Positions 3,144-64,000 of a DNA stretch of 64,000 bases are shown piece after piece. The number at the start of each line of letters is the position of its first letter. Position 1 is the first letter of the stretch. Both the position numbers and the translations under genes were made by a program. This DNA is from Picosynechococcus sp. PCC 7003 (GTDB lineage: Bacteria; Cyanobacteriota; Cyanobacteriia; Cyanobacteriales; MRBY01): assembly GCF_001693255.1 (NCBI RefSeq), contig NZ_CP016474.1, positions 638,661-702,660 on the forward strand, read 5' to 3'. The notes below the pieces were generated by a model. It was not told where the DNA came from. It made no database searches and saw only the letters and a program-made list of their open reading frames with translations.

Positions 3144-4115
3144 ATGATTTCAGCGACTACCCTTTTTTCTCCCGTCGAAGCCGACCTTAAGGAGCTCAGT
3201 GAAAATCTGACGCGGCTAATTAGCGCCCGACATCCGATTTTGGGGGCCGCGGCAGAGCATCTGTTTTCTGCGGGGGGGAAACGAGTTCGACCCGCCATTG
3301 TTCTTTTGGCCTCCCGGGCGACCCTGGGCGATCGCCCCTTAACCCAGCGGCACCGTCGCCTGGCAGAAATTACTGAAATGATTCACACGGCAAGCCTTGT
3401 CCACGATGATGTAGTCGATGAAGCTGCCCTCCGCCGCAGTGTACCCACCGTTAACAGTCTCTTTGATAATCGCATCGCTGTTCTGGCCGGGGATTTTCTC
3501 TTTGCTCAATCCTCTTGGTACCTCGCCAATTTAGATAATCTCACCGTGGTGAAATTGCTATCTGAGGTAATCAAAGACTTCGCCGAAGGGGAAATTCAAC
3601 AGGGACTGAATCGCTTTGACACCGGGATGAATCTCGAAATTTATATCGAAAAATCCTATTACAAAACAGCTTCGTTGATTGGGAACAGTGCAAAAGCGGC
3701 GGCTGTTCTCAGTGAGGTTGACTCAGAAATTGGCGATCGCCTCTACGACTATGGCCGCAACTTAGGTTTAGCCTTTCAGATTGTCGATGACATCCTCGAT
3801 TTCACTGGCTCCACCGATGTTCTGGGAAAACCCGCCGGATCCGATTTAATCGGTGGCCATATCACGGCCCCCGCCCTGTTTGCCATGGAAGAGCATCCCA
3901 ATTTGACTCAATTGATTGAGCGGGAATTTGCCGAAAATGGCGACCCTGAAAAAGCCCTCGAAATTGTCCGCAACAGCAATGGAATCAGCCGCGCCAAGGA
4001 ACTCGCTGCTCACCATGGTCAATTGGCTCGCCAAAGTTTAGAGTGCCTAGATCCCTCTCCCTCTAAGGATGCCCTCACGGATCTGGTTGACTATGTCCTG
4101 GGCCGGATGTACTAG
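3144..4115 (+). CDS. sds: Long-chain all-trans polyprenyl (solanesyl-type) diphosphate synthase
   Basis: This prenyltransferase elongates allylic diphosphates with IPP to make the side chain of plastoquinone. Both aspartate-rich motifs are present: HDDVVDEA at about residues 87-94 and VDDILDFTG at about 214-222. The GGKRVRP box lies near residue 45. The 323-residue length fits the cyanobacterial solanesyl diphosphate synthase family. Product chain length cannot be read from sequence alone. A TACAAT hexamer at 3092-3097 is a reasonable -10 element in front of the ATG. Confidence 0.9.
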   Translation: MISATTLFSPVEADLKELSENLTRLISARHPILGAAAEHLFSAGGKRVRPAIVLLASRATLGDRPLTQRHRRLAEITEMIHTASLVHDDVVDEAALRRSVPTVNSLFDNRIAVLAGDFLFAQSSWYLANLDNLTVVKLLSEVIKDFAEGEIQQGLNRFDTGMNLEIYIEKSYYKTASLIGNSAKAAAVLSEVDSEIGDRLYDYGRNLGLAFQIVDDILDFTGSTDVLGKPAGSDLIGGHITAPALFAMEEHPNLTQLIEREFAENGDPEKALEIVRNSNGISRAKELAAHHGQLARQSLECLDPSPSKDALTDLVDYVLGRMY

Positions 4116-58163: not shown

Positions 58164-59219
58164 ATGGCTCAACACTATTCCTCTATCGAACTATGTGCTG
58201 GTGCGGGTGGACAGGCCCTTGGGCTTCATTTGGCTGGGTTCAAGCATAAAGTTTTAATTGAAATAGAAAAATCTGCTTGCAAAACACTCACACATAACAA
58301 CAATGTTCACTCACTTGGATGGGGAGAAATAATTGAAGGATGTGTGGAGCATTTTGCTAAAAATGAAGCGCACAATTACAAAGGGGTAGATCTTGTTGCC
58401 GGTGGTGTACCATGCCCACCTTTTTCAAAGGCAGGTAAGCAGCTAGGAAAAGATGACGAAAGAGACCTTTTTCCTGCAGCAATTAAAATCGTAGCCAAGG
58501 TTTTACCTAAAGCTGTAATGCTAGAAAACGTTTCAGGCTTACTAGACTCAAAATTTGATTCATATAGAGAAGAAATTGATTTTTCACTTAATACCTTGGG
58601 TTATAAGACATTTTGGAAACTACTGAATGCTTCCGATTTTGGAGTTCCCCAGTTAAGACCGAGAGTTGTACTGGTTGCATTGAGAGGAAAGTATGCGCAG
58701 TATTTTTCATGGCCAGACTATACGATTGAACCTCCAACAGTAGGAGAAGCATTATATGATTTAATGGCTGCGAACGGCTGGGATCAAGTAGATGAATGGA
58801 AGAAGAAAGCCAACAAGATAGCACCAACGTTAGTCGGTGGCTCTAAGAAACATGGTGGGCCTGATCTAGGCCCTTCGAGGGCTAGACGTGCTTGGCAAGA
58901 GCTTCACGTTAATGGAAATATTGTTGGCAATGATGCACCGGAACAAAACTATAGAGGATATAAAAACAAAGAAGAATATAGAAATATGCCATTACTAACA
59001 GTAAAGATGGCCGCAAGGATTCAAGGTTTTCCAGACTGGTGGGAATTTTATGGTAAAAAAACTCCCGCATATCGACAGGTTGGAAATGCTTTTCCTCCTC
59101 CTGTTGCGGAGGCAGTTGGGAAAGAAATATTTAAAGCACTTAAAGCTATTGATAGAAAAAAAATGTCGCCTAGTCTTTGTTTTTGTCGTCAAGATAATAA
59201 TTTGATGCATCTTCCATAA
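58164..59219 (+). CDS. dcm: DNA (cytosine-5-)-methyltransferase
   Basis: A type II modification enzyme of 351 residues. Motif I is SIELCAGAGGQALG (about 7-20). Motif IV holds the catalytic Cys84 in GGVPCPPFSKAG, motif VI is MLENVSG, motif VIII is QLRPRVVLVAL and motif X is YRQVGNAFPPPVAEAVG. The target site cannot be read from sequence. The gene overlaps the converging HNH endonuclease gene by 50 bases at the 3' end. It is AT-rich and without HIP1 sites, unlike the core genes around it, so acquisition by transfer is likely. Confidence 0.93.
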   Translation: MAQHYSSIELCAGAGGQALGLHLAGFKHKVLIEIEKSACKTLTHNNNVHSLGWGEIIEGCVEHFAKNEAHNYKGVDLVAGGVPCPPFSKAGKQLGKDDERDLFPAAIKIVAKVLPKAVMLENVSGLLDSKFDSYREEIDFSLNTLGYKTFWKLLNASDFGVPQLRPRVVLVALRGKYAQYFSWPDYTIEPPTVGEALYDLMAANGWDQVDEWKKKANKIAPTLVGGSKKHGGPDLGPSRARRAWQELHVNGNIVGNDAPEQNYRGYKNKEEYRNMPLLTVKMAARIQGFPDWWEFYGKKTPAYRQVGNAFPPPVAEAVGKEIFKALKAIDRKKMSPSLCFCRQDNNLMHLP

Positions 59220-59847
59220 CTTTATCGCGAGTAGTTTTATTTCTGATTGAATACTCGTCTATTCGGCGAAGAGTTTTCTCACTTATTGACACCACGGTTA
59301 TAACGCCGAATTTTTCAGGATATGCCCAGGAACAGGTTTCGCATTCTAATTCGCAACCCTCGCAGGCACGCCTTTTTCCCACATTACAGTTATTGCACAT
59401 AGGTTGCCAATTTGTAAGCTCGTTTGAACCGCCTCTAGATAGCGGTACTTTGTGATCTGCTTGTAAACCCTTTATACCAGCAGATATTTGTATTCCACAA
59501 GTTACACAAGTGTAATTATGATCCTCAAATAGTTTGTTTTTTTGTCTTTGTGTTAAATAACCTCTATCTTGTGGTGGGGATAGGCTGCTAGATTTAAGTC
59601 TCCAACCGTGGCCATTGAATTGCTCGATATACGAACTTTCTATGTCACAACCAAGCTCATCTCTTAACTCTCTTGTTCGTCTATCGAAGTATTTTTGGCC
59701 AGTGAGTTCCAACAGTTCATCCGATGATACCCATGGTTTTGGGAAAGCATCAGATGTATCACCCCATAAACGAGTTAATATTTTCGATTTGACGTCACTA
59801 AGCTTTCTTTTCGTTGGTAGAGACTGGAGGTAACTATCTAGCTGCAT
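59170..59847 (-). CDS. HNH restriction endonuclease (partner of the cytosine methylase)
   Basis: A 225-residue nuclease. The N-terminal region (about 36-86) looks like a winged-helix domain (VSSDELLELTGQ, FDRRTRELRDELG), probably for DNA recognition. The HNH core has Cys114/Cys117 in CVTCG, the catalytic pair Asp131-His132 in ADHKVPLSRGG, and Cys151/Cys154 in MCNNCN. Another cysteine cluster follows (C162, C165, C169, C172). Position tail-to-tail with the methylase supports a type II restriction-modification pair. Cutting specificity is unknown. Confidence 0.85.
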   Translation of the reverse strand: MQLDSYLQSLPTKRKLSDVKSKILTRLWGDTSDAFPKPWVSSDELLELTGQKYFDRRTRELRDELGCDIESSYIEQFNGHGWRLKSSSLSPPQDRGYLTQRQKNKLFEDHNYTCVTCGIQISAGIKGLQADHKVPLSRGGSNELTNWQPMCNNCNVGKRRACEGCELECETCSWAYPEKFGVITVVSISEKTLRRIDEYSIRNKTTRDKVMEDASNYYLDDKNKD

Positions 59848-60007: not shown

Positions 60008-61060
60008 TCAACGATGGCGACGCAAAATTAAAATGACAATAATCGGTGCGCCGAACATTGCCGTAACCGTATTCAAGGGTAACGTTAATTCACTCCCTGG
60101 CAATTGCACAATAATATCCGCGAGCAACGCCAGACTAGATCCCAATAAAGTCACCGCTGGAACCAAAAGCCGATGATCGACGGTTTTCAGTAAGCCCCGA
60201 CAGAGGTGCGGCACCGCAATCCCCAGAAAAGAAATCGGGCCACAAAATGCCGTTACTGATCCCGCCAAAAGAGCAGTACTGACAATGATGTGACGACGGG
60301 TTGCTTTTAGGTTGAGGCCGACGCTTTGGGCGTATTGTTTGCCGAGAAGGAGCGCGTTCAAGGGTTTTGCCTGGAAAAAAGCCAGCAGCCCCCCCGCAAA
60401 AATTAACACCATAAAAATGGGCAACTGCTCCTGCTGGATTTCGGCGAAACTGCCAAATGTCCAACTTAGATACAGGCGCAGCGCCTCTGTGGGGCTAAAG
60501 TGCAACAGCAATGTCACCAAAGAATTACTGACGTAGCCGAGCATCAACCCCAAAATTAGTAGGGTGCCATTGTGGGGAATCCGACGGGCGATCGCCAAGA
60601 CGAGCAGCAACACCACCACCGCCCCCAAACTCGCCGCCATCGCCACACTCAAATTTCCGAACAGACCGCCCATAAAACCCGTTCCCAACAGCACCAGGGC
60701 GACCCCCAAACTTGCGCCAGAATTGATGCCCAGCACAAAAGGGCCAGCGAGGGGATTGTTAAACAGGGTTTGCATCTGGAGGCCGCTAATGCCGAGGGCA
60801 GCCCCGGCAAAGGTGGCAGCGATCGCCCGTGGAAAGCGCAGTTGCCAAACGATTTCTGCCCACACCGGATTGTCAATGGGTTGGCCTAAGGCGATCGCCA
60901 AGAGTTGATCCCAGGGAATGGTCGTCGAGCCAAGACTCAAGCTAAGGAAAAATAAGACCCCCCACAGGCCCCCCAGCAGAATAAATAACGAAGGCGATCG
61001 CCACCGTAGTTCCGGTAGAGACAAACAAGTTAAAGGGGTCGTGGTGTAGGGAATTTTCAC
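60008..61060 (-). CDS. FecCD/BtuC-type ABC transporter permease
   Basis: An inner-membrane permease of 350 residues with about nine or ten hydrophobic helices, for siderophore-iron, haem or vitamin B12. Family marks are LRFPRAIAATFAGAALGISGLQMQTLFNNPLAGPFVLGINSGASLG near residues 70-115 and the region GPISFLGIAVPHLCRGL near 270. Its GTG start overlaps the TGA stop of the binding-protein gene (GTGA), implying translational coupling. No ATPase gene follows before the AT-rich restriction genes. Confidence 0.9.
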   Translation of the reverse strand: MKIPYTTTPLTCLSLPELRWRSPSLFILLGGLWGVLFFLSLSLGSTTIPWDQLLAIALGQPIDNPVWAEIVWQLRFPRAIAATFAGAALGISGLQMQTLFNNPLAGPFVLGINSGASLGVALVLLGTGFMGGLFGNLSVAMAASLGAVVVLLLVLAIARRIPHNGTLLILGLMLGYVSNSLVTLLLHFSPTEALRLYLSWTFGSFAEIQQEQLPIFMVLIFAGGLLAFFQAKPLNALLLGKQYAQSVGLNLKATRRHIIVSTALLAGSVTAFCGPISFLGIAVPHLCRGLLKTVDHRLLVPAVTLLGSSLALLADIIVQLPGSELTLPLNTVTAMFGAPIIVILILRRHR

Positions 61061-62271
61061 GGGGAATTTTGCAGGTGGCGGTAATAATAAAGCTCGTGGT
61101 CAGGTAATTGATCAGGGTGGGCAATTTTAATCACATCGGCGAGGATCACATCGGGATTGAGAATGCCCCCTTCCCAAAAATCATTGCCTCCCCCTGGCGC
61201 TACCCGGTTGTTGGCGGCATAGACTTGCTGGTTTTGCACTGCTTCAAACAGTTCATAGCGTTGGTCTTCCTGGAAAATATCGGCGGTGGTTTGCCAAGCG
61301 GGATTCACATTTAGCCAAAGATCCGCTGTCTTTGCCCGACCTAAAACAGCCTCAAAATCAAGGGGTAAACTCAAGCGAGCCGCTGTAGCATCCCAGGGAT
61401 AATTCACGTTGGCATCCCGCAGCAGTTGGGCCACATAGCTTTTTCCTCCTGGCACATACCAGACCCCTTGGTAGGGCGACCCACTGAGTACCGTTGGCGT
61501 TGTTTCTAAATCTTTGACTTGGTTCACGAGGGCTTGGTAACGGTCGGCGATCGCCCCAAAAATCTCATTGGCTTCAGCTTCTTTGTTAAAGAGGAGAGCC
61601 GTAAACTTGAGCCATTCCGCCCGGCCCAGGGGAGTGGGTTCCAGGTGCGCTGCGTCTAACACCACCGTTAACCCCAAGGAATCTAGGGCGCTGGTATTGT
61701 TCCCCTCACTGGCATCGAGGCGATAGTTCAAAATCACATCGGGCTGGAGACTGAGGATCGCTTCCCGGTCTAGCTGGAGATTGCCGACTTCTTGGATATC
61801 GCCCGCTTCAATGGCCGCCCGAATTTCAGGACTATAGATCAGTTGGCGATCGCCGACCCCAATTAAATTTTCTAAATGACCTAAAACGTCTAAGTGGGGT
61901 AAATAGGTTGTCGAAAGGGCAATCACCCGGTTGACGGGCACTTCAACGATGGTCGCCTCTGGATAATCCTCCGGAATGGGCGTACCACACTGCACAAAAA
62001 CATAAGTTAAATCTTGCTGGGCTGTTTCCCAGGGCTGCCGCACCGTCACCACTTTGTAATGGTCGTGGTATGTCACCTGGAAGCCACTGGCAAATTCTGG
62101 CGTTACCTTATTGGGAAAATAATCCACCGCCGGATCATAATTTTCGACACAAGCTGTCGTCGGTGCTGGGGTCTCCGTGAGCGGTTGGGTGGGGCCACAA
62201 CCCCCTAGCCAGAGGGATAAACCCAGGCCCAGCAGAGGAAGCGAACGGTGTGGCAATAGGGGAAAACGCAT
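61057..62271 (-). CDS. Periplasmic iron-siderophore/B12-type substrate-binding lipoprotein
   Basis: A class III (FecB/BtuF-like) binding protein of 404 residues. A lipoprotein signal ends in LGGC (Cys25). The two lobes are shown by VNRVIALSTTYLPHLDVLGHLENLIGVGDRQ near residue 112 and by LSLQPDVILNY near 183, joined by the usual long helix. The start is placed at the ATG 62,271 with GGAG upstream; a GTG at 62,295 would extend the frame by 8 residues. It lies 11 bases after the phosphoesterase gene stop. Ligand unknown. Confidence 0.9.
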   Translation of the reverse strand: MRFPLLPHRSLPLLGLGLSLWLGGCGPTQPLTETPAPTTACVENYDPAVDYFPNKVTPEFASGFQVTYHDHYKVVTVRQPWETAQQDLTYVFVQCGTPIPEDYPEATIVEVPVNRVIALSTTYLPHLDVLGHLENLIGVGDRQLIYSPEIRAAIEAGDIQEVGNLQLDREAILSLQPDVILNYRLDASEGNNTSALDSLGLTVVLDAAHLEPTPLGRAEWLKFTALLFNKEAEANEIFGAIADRYQALVNQVKDLETTPTVLSGSPYQGVWYVPGGKSYVAQLLRDANVNYPWDATAARLSLPLDFEAVLGRAKTADLWLNVNPAWQTTADIFQEDQRYELFEAVQNQQVYAANNRVAPGGGNDFWEGGILNPDVILADVIKIAHPDQLPDHELYYYRHLQNSP

Positions 62272-62282
62272 CTTTTTTGCTC

Positions 62283-63050
62283 CTATGTAAACCACGGAAT
62301 GCGTTGTACCGTTGTTGCAAAGTGACCATCGTCCTGGAGTTCAAACAGACGGAAACCCGGTTGTTCCCACAGTTGGCGATCGCCTGCGATGGGTTCCTGA
62401 TCCGGCGGCGTCACTTGGGTGCAAGTTGATGGTGTACCAAAGCAGGGAATTTCCCCTTGGGTGACGCTGTATTCCAGATGCACATGGCCAAAGAAAACCG
62501 TTTTCACCTGGGGATGGTTTTGGATAATTTCCCAAAACTCAGCGCGGTTGGTCACATCAATTTGATCAAGCCAATCAACCCCCGCTGGCACCACATGGTG
62601 ATGGATGGCGATCGCCACTGGAGAATTTTGATATTGTTCCAGGTTTTCCGCGAGCCAAGCCAATTGATTCGCATCTAAAAACCCCTCGCCATATTCTGGA
62701 TTTTTAAGAAACGAATCCAACAGCAGCAGTTGCCATGGCCCCAGGGAAACGCTCTTTTCGGGCGAAAGGTAATCTCCCTGTAAAATCTCTGCCATAACTT
62801 TCGGATCATCATGATTCCCCGGCAGCCAATAGCTGGGAATCTGGGTCGCTTCGACTAAATCCCGTAACCGTTTATAGGCGATCGCCTCACCGTGGTGGGC
62901 CAAATCCCCCGTTAGAATCACGCGATCTGGTTTAAACTGTTGCGCCGCCGCCAATACCGCCTGAAAAGACGCATCCGTTTTCACGCCCCGCATTTCGGCA
63001 TCGGGATGGTCGAGGAGGTGGGTATCAGTAATCTGGGCAATGAGAACCAT
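62283..63050 (-). CDS. Calcineurin-like metallophosphoesterase, CpdA-like
   Basis: This two-metal phosphoesterase of 255 residues resembles class III cyclic-nucleotide phosphodiesterases. Metal-binding segments in order are AQITDTHLLD (residues 5-14), ILTGDLAHHGE near 47, WLPGNHDDP near 77, AIHHHVVPAG near 150 and FFGHVHLEYS near 185. ATG at 63,050 is the preferred start (a TTG at 63,068 also fits). It lies inside the uptake operon between the TonB receptor and the binding protein. Possible roles include cAMP breakdown or action on an organic phosphate ligand. Confidence 0.87.
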   Translation of the reverse strand: MVLIAQITDTHLLDHPDAEMRGVKTDASFQAVLAAAQQFKPDRVILTGDLAHHGEAIAYKRLRDLVEATQIPSYWLPGNHDDPKVMAEILQGDYLSPEKSVSLGPWQLLLLDSFLKNPEYGEGFLDANQLAWLAENLEQYQNSPVAIAIHHHVVPAGVDWLDQIDVTNRAEFWEIIQNHPQVKTVFFGHVHLEYSVTQGEIPCFGTPSTCTQVTPPDQEPIAGDRQLWEQPGFRLFELQDDGHFATTVQRIPWFT

Positions 63051-63089
63051 GGGAAATCGTGGGAGCAATAGGGGATGAAACGGAGCAAT

Positions 63090-64000
63090 TTAACGGAATT
63101 GGGCATTGACACCAATCTGAAGCCGACGCCCAACGCCCGGAAACGCTGGGAACGTTTCAAAATCTGCATCAAACAAATTTTCGACACTCGCCGTTAAATT
63201 CACGGTATCACTAATGGGATAACGCGCCCGCAAATCAAGGTTGGTGTAGCCTTCGAGGGATGCAGTATTGGCATTATTTGTGAGGCGATCGCCGACCCGT
63301 TTCAAGAAAATTCCGGCATAAATTCCCTGGGGATTTTCATAGGCGAGGCCAACATTAAAGGAATCCGTCCCGGCAAAGGCGACCTCGTTACCAACCACCG
63401 CCGGATCAGCATCGGCAAGAATTTTAGAGTTGTTCCAGGTGTAGTTAGCAAAGGCAGACAGAGAAGGTGCCAATTGAACCGTTAACTCTGCTTCTAAACC
63501 TTGATTGCGCGCTTTCCGGACATTTTGTGGCGTGAATGTCTCTAGATCAAAAACGATGGCATCATCAAGGGTGTTATTAAAGTAAGTCAGGCGCACCAAA
63601 GCACGGTCTGAAAAACGATGATCAATGCCAAGATCAAAGCTATTCCCAATCTCCGGCACTAAATCAGGATTGCTAAACCCAGGAAAATAAAGATCCACTG
63701 CCGTCGGCACACGGAAGTTACGGGCATAGTTCCCCCGAATTCGCGTCGCGTCTCCCATTTGCCAAGCGAACCCCGCACTAGGCGATGTCACCGAACCATC
63801 AGCCAAACTATTAAAGTCCTGGCGCACGCCCAGATTTAAAGCCAGTTCCGGGGTGATATCCAGGCCATAGCGAGCAAAAATTGCCCCTTGACTGAGATTT
63901 TCGTCGTAACTAAAGCCAAATACACCAGGATCTTCTGCTTTTGCAGTCAAATAGCGGTAATCAAAACCATAGGTGAGATTTTGGGTTTCATTTAGTTGCC
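63090..64000 (-). CDS. TonB-dependent outer-membrane receptor (partial, C-terminal part)
   Basis: The frame is open to the window edge, so the N-terminal plug and TonB box lie outside. The visible part is a beta-barrel with alternating polar and hydrophobic strands: RIRGNYARNFRVPTAVDLYFPG, NSFDLGIDHRFSDRALVRLTYFNN and NLDLRARYPISDTVNLTASVENLFD. It ends with a typical strand, IGVNAQFR. Such receptors import siderophores, haem or cobalamin. Position upstream of a phosphoesterase, binding protein and FecCD permease gene suggests one uptake operon; the ligand is not identified. Confidence 0.92.
   Translation of the reverse strand, partial: QLNETQNLTYGFDYRYLTAKAEDPGVFGFSYDENLSQGAIFARYGLDITPELALNLGVRQDFNSLADGSVTSPSAGFAWQMGDATRIRGNYARNFRVPTAVDLYFPGFSNPDLVPEIGNSFDLGIDHRFSDRALVRLTYFNNTLDDAIVFDLETFTPQNVRKARNQGLEAELTVQLAPSLSAFANYTWNNSKILADADPAVVGNEVAFAGTDSFNVGLAYENPQGIYAGIFLKRVGDRLTNNANTASLEGYTNLDLRARYPISDTVNLTASVENLFDADFETFPAFPGVGRRLQIGVNAQFR

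Follow-up and report, generated by a model that had tools for sequence, protein, structure and literature searches.

A phosphoesterase subfamily kept with vitamin B12 import genes in Picosynechococcus sp. PCC 7003 and other cyanobacteria

The btu locus and its riboswitch

The window analysed here is a stretch of 64,000 nucleotides (G000:C1:638661-702660) from the 3.35 Mb genome of Picosynechococcus sp. PCC 7003; the closest genome in the comparison set is G029. Four minus-strand genes lie at its end, encoding a TonB-dependent receptor (BtuB), a metallophosphoesterase (MPE), a cobamide-binding lipoprotein (BtuF) and a FecCD/BtuC-type permease (Table 1). All four Pfam matches (PF00593, PF00149, PF01497 and PF01032) exceed their own cut-offs, and BtuF contains, by eye, a lipobox-like LGGC. 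Mechanical open reading frames place the starts of the phosphoesterase and btuF at TTG 63068 and GTG 62295, respectively; the ATG starts given in Table 1 were preferred.

Table 1. Features of the btu locus; positions refer to the window unless a genome (G) or locus (L) coordinate is given
Feature	Position	Strand	Evidence and remarks
btuB, TonB-dependent receptor, C-terminal part	63998-63090 (feature 63090..64000)	-	PF00593, 165.7 bits; runs off window end
btuB, complete gene	G000:C1:703720-701750 = L003:6721-4751	-	full ORF, 656 aa; start beyond window
btu-linked metallophosphoesterase ('cpdA' of PCC 7002)	62283..63050, ATG 63050	-	PF00149, 60.6 bits; 255 aa
btuF, cobamide-binding lipoprotein	61057..62271, ATG 62271	-	PF01497, 75.5 bits
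btuC, FecCD/BtuC-type permease	60008..61060, GTG 61060	-	PF01032, 241.5 bits
Cobalamin riboswitch RF00174	G000:C1:704230-704084 = L003:7231-7085, ~1.4 kb past window end, upstream of btuB		68.7 bits, E 7e-16, gathering 31.5

A preliminary description of the window had reported gaps of 39, 11 and -4 bases between the four genes, in agreement with both the ORF list and the sequence, and had suggested a single transcript. That suggestion had been staked beforehand on conservation of the gene order, and the four-gene order is present in all six genus genomes examined, so that the arrangement is not due to chance. Together with the gaps and the single upstream riboswitch, this conservation argues that the four genes are probably transcribed as one unit. 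As to a separate promoter for the phosphoesterase, a sigma-70-type scan detected no promoter-like minus-strand match between btuB and the phosphoesterase gene; across 6 kb and both strands the scan, a weak test limited to that promoter type, gave four matches where 6.7 are expected by chance.

The match to the cobalamin riboswitch upstream of btuB is the only one in the whole genome. Because a cobalamin riboswitch precedes the receptor gene, we conclude that the operon serves vitamin B12 and not iron: btuB, the phosphoesterase gene, btuF and btuC together form a vitamin B12 (cobamide) import operon. Siderophore or haem uptake, entertained in the preliminary description, is rejected on this ground. 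A riboswitch before the receptor gene, and a TonB receptor, binding protein and FecCD permease side by side, are what an operon of this kind should contain; the btuD of the textbook set is missing, there being no ATPase gene adjoining btuC. The earlier remark that B12 uptake does not usually involve a phosphoesterase holds for the E. coli set of the textbooks; in cyanobacteria the association is widespread, and for PCC 7002 it has been published.

Elsewhere in the genome, contig C3 carries another TonB receptor gene, accompanied by genes for a FecCD permease, a FecE ATPase and a binding protein (L057, G000:C3:205000-224000), a set that is probably a siderophore system. The site downstream of btuC (window 58164-59847) is strain-variable. 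In PCC 7003 btuC is directly followed by a pair of genes that overlap at their 3' ends, one for an m5C methyltransferase (58164-59219, plus strand; PADLOC DruM2/MTase_II, 478 and 390 bits) and the other HNH restriction-enzyme-like (59170-59847, minus strand; REase_II, 80.5 bits); at the same site PCC 7117 has a 515-aa ORF (L037:2950-4497) with no Pfam or PADLOC match.

Distribution and descent of the linked enzyme

The linkage was surveyed in 148 genomes of the order, with BtuC orthologs defined by a score of at least 214 bits (the next best match scores 119). Orthologs occur in 26 genomes, one of them (G065) with a broken gene, and in 17 of these 26 the phosphoesterase gene adjoins btuF or btuC. 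The 17 genomes and 14 further named loci make up 31 distinct linked loci (the listing comprises 38 rows, of which seven named rows repeat genome rows). The linkage survives gene rearrangement: 20 of the 31 loci read btuF-MPE-btuC, with or without btuB and a gene for a DUF7676 protein, while six have the order btuB-MPE-btuF-btuC, three consist of MPE-btuC alone, one shows MPE-btuF-btuC at a contig edge and one, from a Gloeobacterales MAG, is convergent.

The DUF7676 protein has a ferredoxin-like C-terminal part and fits the ferredoxin-like alr4030 of Anabaena. Twelve of the 31 linked loci carry its gene between btuB and btuF, and the gene is also found in the btu locus of seven of the eight unlinked genomes with intact btuC (examples of the gene are L043:3392-4312, L046:1482-2375 and L053:5993-6862).

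Riboswitches were sought in 28 of the linked loci (all except L104, L124 and L145). In 20 of them btuB is preceded by one; in G144 (L046) the riboswitch comes after btuC instead, and no match reaches the gathering score in L042, L045, L049, L202, L095, L101 or L102. An Acaryochloris MAG (L119) carries tandem cobalamin riboswitches before btuB (L119:3084-3226 and 3565-3707).

An ATPase gene adjoins btuC in none of the 17 linked genomes, as against five of the eight unlinked genomes with intact btuC (five of nine if the broken gene is included); four of these five ATPase genes are on the same strand and one is on the opposite strand. The contrast has a Fisher p of 0.001, a value that ignores kinship (the linked cases span six families and the five others three). 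The best FecE-type ATPase on the PCC 7003 chromosome (G000:C1:1700649-1699633) matches the operon-borne btuD of G058, G085 and G111 at 290-294 bits, and on the basis of this similarity it is the likely BtuD candidate. An intact operon-type BtuD is confined to five of the six genus genomes and to G058, G085 and G111, where its gene is part of the operon. The sixth genus genome, G106, has a BtuD-like ATPase in two pieces with stop codons between them (L220 and L238, G106:C137) and an intact btu operon; the split is either a draft error or a real loss. In the remaining 11 linked genomes BtuD matches score 142-172 bits at best, and none is found at E 1e-40 in G028 and G143. In PCC 7003 the candidate btuD follows, on the same strand, a Fur-family regulator and a CobQ-like gene whose score is below the NCBIfam cut-off (L243:6631-9842), a neighbourhood that may link B12 uptake or salvage to metal sensing.

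The descent of the phosphoesterase was examined in two trees, of 99 and 103 rows. The first is free of rows identical to one already included; the second includes all 60 stronger CpdA-like matches and dispenses with 30 of the 42 mainly proteobacterial outgroup rows; eight weak matches (at most 89.5 bits) were omitted from both. In both trees, with support of 100/100, all 31 linked enzymes and three unlinked ones form a single clade of 34 rows, separate from ordinary CpdA and from the proteobacterial CpdA proteins. By genome, clade members occur in 18 of the 26 with a BtuC ortholog (G065 included), leaving eight without, and in just one of the 122 others: 19 of 148 in total.

The three unlinked members differ in their surroundings. 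In Phormidium (L116, one MAG contig) the enzyme gene follows cbiD at a distance of 66 bp, and the stretch examined contains neither a transporter gene nor a riboswitch. In G065 (L044) a btuB fragment and the DUF7676 gene adjoin the enzyme gene, and the broken btuC lies elsewhere. The member from G013 (L054) comes from a genome with no BtuC ortholog, and its neighbours are unrelated to B12. Three genomes (G005, G065 and G144) hold both a clade enzyme and an unlinked CpdA-like paralog, so that the two cannot be treated as interchangeable labels.

The enzyme and its possible substrates

The motif of class III phosphodiesterases (D-x-H, GD, GNHD, H, GHxH) is present, and the catalytic residues D9, H11, D49, N79, H80, H150, H189 and H191 are universal. 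Around the active site, however, the clade departs from CpdA: D53 and Q192, conserved in other CpdA-like proteins, are mostly lost, and the clade has gained R21, W26 (replaced by D in the protein of PCC 7003), G121-E122 and D159. The nearest curated family is the CpdA equivalog PRK11148, yet the score of 196 bits is below the curated cut-off of 225 and, given also the separate clade, we rejected a plain CpdA identity. The AlphaFold model (pLDDT 96.0) has its nearest folds in GpdQ (Z 32.0) and Rv0805 (Z 30.4), although a common fold does not show the substrate. The enzyme thus shares fold and two-metal catalytic motif with CpdA, the class III cyclic-nucleotide phosphodiesterases and GpdQ, and is distinguished from CpdA by clade, score and clade-specific residues. 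No signal peptide is evident by eye, and the protein should therefore be cytoplasmic. Pfam matches are confined to PF00149 and PF12850; neither a histidine-phosphatase domain nor the AP-endonuclease-2 domain (pfam01261) is among them.

Because the clade tracks the B12 transporter, we favour processing of an imported ligand as the role that genome comparison suggests for the enzyme. Under low cobamide the riboswitch would permit expression of the operon, and corrinoids would be brought in by BtuB, BtuF and BtuC together with a BtuD ATPase whose gene lies outside the operon. The phosphoesterase, a two-metal phosphodiesterase with the GpdQ/Rv0805 fold, would then act in the cytoplasm as a specialist of the import pathway, hydrolysing a phosphoester of the incoming cobamide; our best guess is the phosphodiester of the nucleotide loop. 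The product would be cobinamide-phosphate or cobinamide, from which CobU and CobS could rebuild a cobamide with the cell's own lower base. We give the whole account, a riboswitch-controlled cobamide import operon with a cobamide-cutting phosphodiesterase, a probability of about 0.4. That the substrate is a cobamide seems somewhat probable; that cleavage falls in the nucleotide loop and serves remodelling is put forward tentatively.

A cobamide phosphodiesterase is favoured because the clade is tied to import, because cbiD is the neighbour in L116, because CbiR offers a precedent and because the nucleotide-loop genes are kept. CbiR of Akkermansia muciniphila is described as a phosphodiesterase that opens the nucleotide loop and so starts cobamide remodelling (passages of PMC7733943). 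The likeness would be one of action, namely loop opening with CobU and CobS acting afterwards: CbiR belongs to the AP-endonuclease-2 superfamily, a TIM barrel, whereas the btu-linked enzyme is calcineurin-like, of unrelated fold, and not a CbiR member. CobS and CobU are present in all 26 BtuC genomes, PCC 7003 included, with or without the enzyme, and were accordingly discarded as discriminating markers. The precorrin-8X methylmutase CbiC, found in 25 of the 26 including PCC 7003, does not decide on prototrophy either. Its presence in PCC 7003 sits badly with a pure auxotroph; auxotrophy has been reported only for the relatives PCC 7002 and PCC 11901. In PCC 11901, which is closely related to PCC 7002, B12 auxotrophy is reported along with CobA, CobQ and CobS (passages of PMC7205611); nucleotide-loop genes thus persist in this auxotrophic group.

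The main rival, which we regard as unlikely, is genuine 3',5'-cAMP (or 2',3'-cNMP) phosphodiesterase activity; encoded in the operon, such an enzyme would bring a cyclic nucleotide down as well when B12 runs short. CpdA is, after all, the nearest curated family, fold and motif are shared with Rv0805 and other class III cyclic-nucleotide phosphodiesterases, and PCC 7003 has no second CpdA-like gene at E 1e-10. Set against this are the sub-cut-off score, the separate clade and the loss of D53 and Q192, as well as the three genomes that have kept an ordinary CpdA-like paralog too, and a clade that follows the B12 transporter.

Improbable, in our view, is removal of the 5'-phosphate of AdoCbl-5'-phosphate or alpha-ribazole phosphate, with the enzyme replacing CobC or CobZ in salvage. 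The enzyme lacks the histidine-phosphatase domain of CobC phosphatase. Calcineurin-like enzymes can be monoesterases, and CobS, the maker of the phosphorylated product, is in every BtuC genome. Present in only 19 genomes, of which 18 have a BtuC ortholog, the clade is too rare to be the general CobC of these cyanobacteria. Least probable is a role as regulator or partner of the permease, filling the position of an ATPase gene in the operon, with catalysis secondary. The absence of an ATPase gene beside btuC in linked genomes would fit such a role, yet no clade member has lost the metal-binding motif, five of six genus genomes encode a BtuD-like ATPase elsewhere (the sixth, G106, has it in two pieces), and L116 retains the enzyme with no adjoining transporter gene.

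Published operons and significance

The primary source for the btu operon of PCC 7002 is reportedly Perez, Rodionov and Bryant 2016. A review describes a riboswitch-regulated 'btuB-cpdA-btuC-btuF' in this B12 auxotroph, Synechococcus PCC 7002 (passages of PMC8123684), and the transport role of its btu genes, earlier annotated as siderophore genes, has been shown experimentally (passages of PMC5668215). The operon of PCC 7003 is alike in its four genes, genus and preceding cobalamin riboswitch; the passages of these sources that deal with PCC 7002 leave btuD unnamed, and the review places btuC before btuF where PCC 7003 has btuF before btuC. From the PCC 7002 locus numbers A0634/0635/0637, which leave a gap, we infer that the phosphoesterase is A0636. 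Similar too is the Btu cluster of Anabaena PCC 7120, with riboswitch-controlled btuB2, the ferredoxin-like gene alr4030, btuF and btuC, although unlike PCC 7003 it has btuD in the operon; the words cpdA, phosphoesterase and phosphodiesterase do not appear in the text on this cluster (passages of PMC10878165).

A search of the open-licence PMC literature found no paper on the role of the btu-linked phosphoesterase. Within that literature the operon is already known, but the dedicated, widely conserved phosphoesterase subfamily seems to be undescribed and, as far as searches show, so does its alternation with an operon-borne btuD.

Cyanobacteria mostly make pseudocobalamin and the surrounding heterotrophs make cobalamin (passages of PMC4850488). 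The btu-linked enzymes could represent a new, calcineurin-like class of cobamide phosphodiesterase: the nucleotide loop of scavenged cobalamin would be opened and then rebuilt via CobU and CobS to give pseudocobalamin, the form normally used by cyanobacteria, even where a strain lacks corrin-ring synthesis, a proposal that we consider doubtful. A dedicated enzyme in B12 import operons provides one gene to delete, one protein to assay and a clear corrinoid readout, and PCC 7002, a genetically tractable B12 auxotroph, is suited to such work. Should the enzyme cut cAMP instead, B12 supply would turn out to be coupled, unexpectedly, to a cyclic nucleotide. Kept with B12 import genes across many cyanobacteria, the phosphoesterase family is a good candidate for a B12-processing enzyme that acts after import and has so far escaped recognition.
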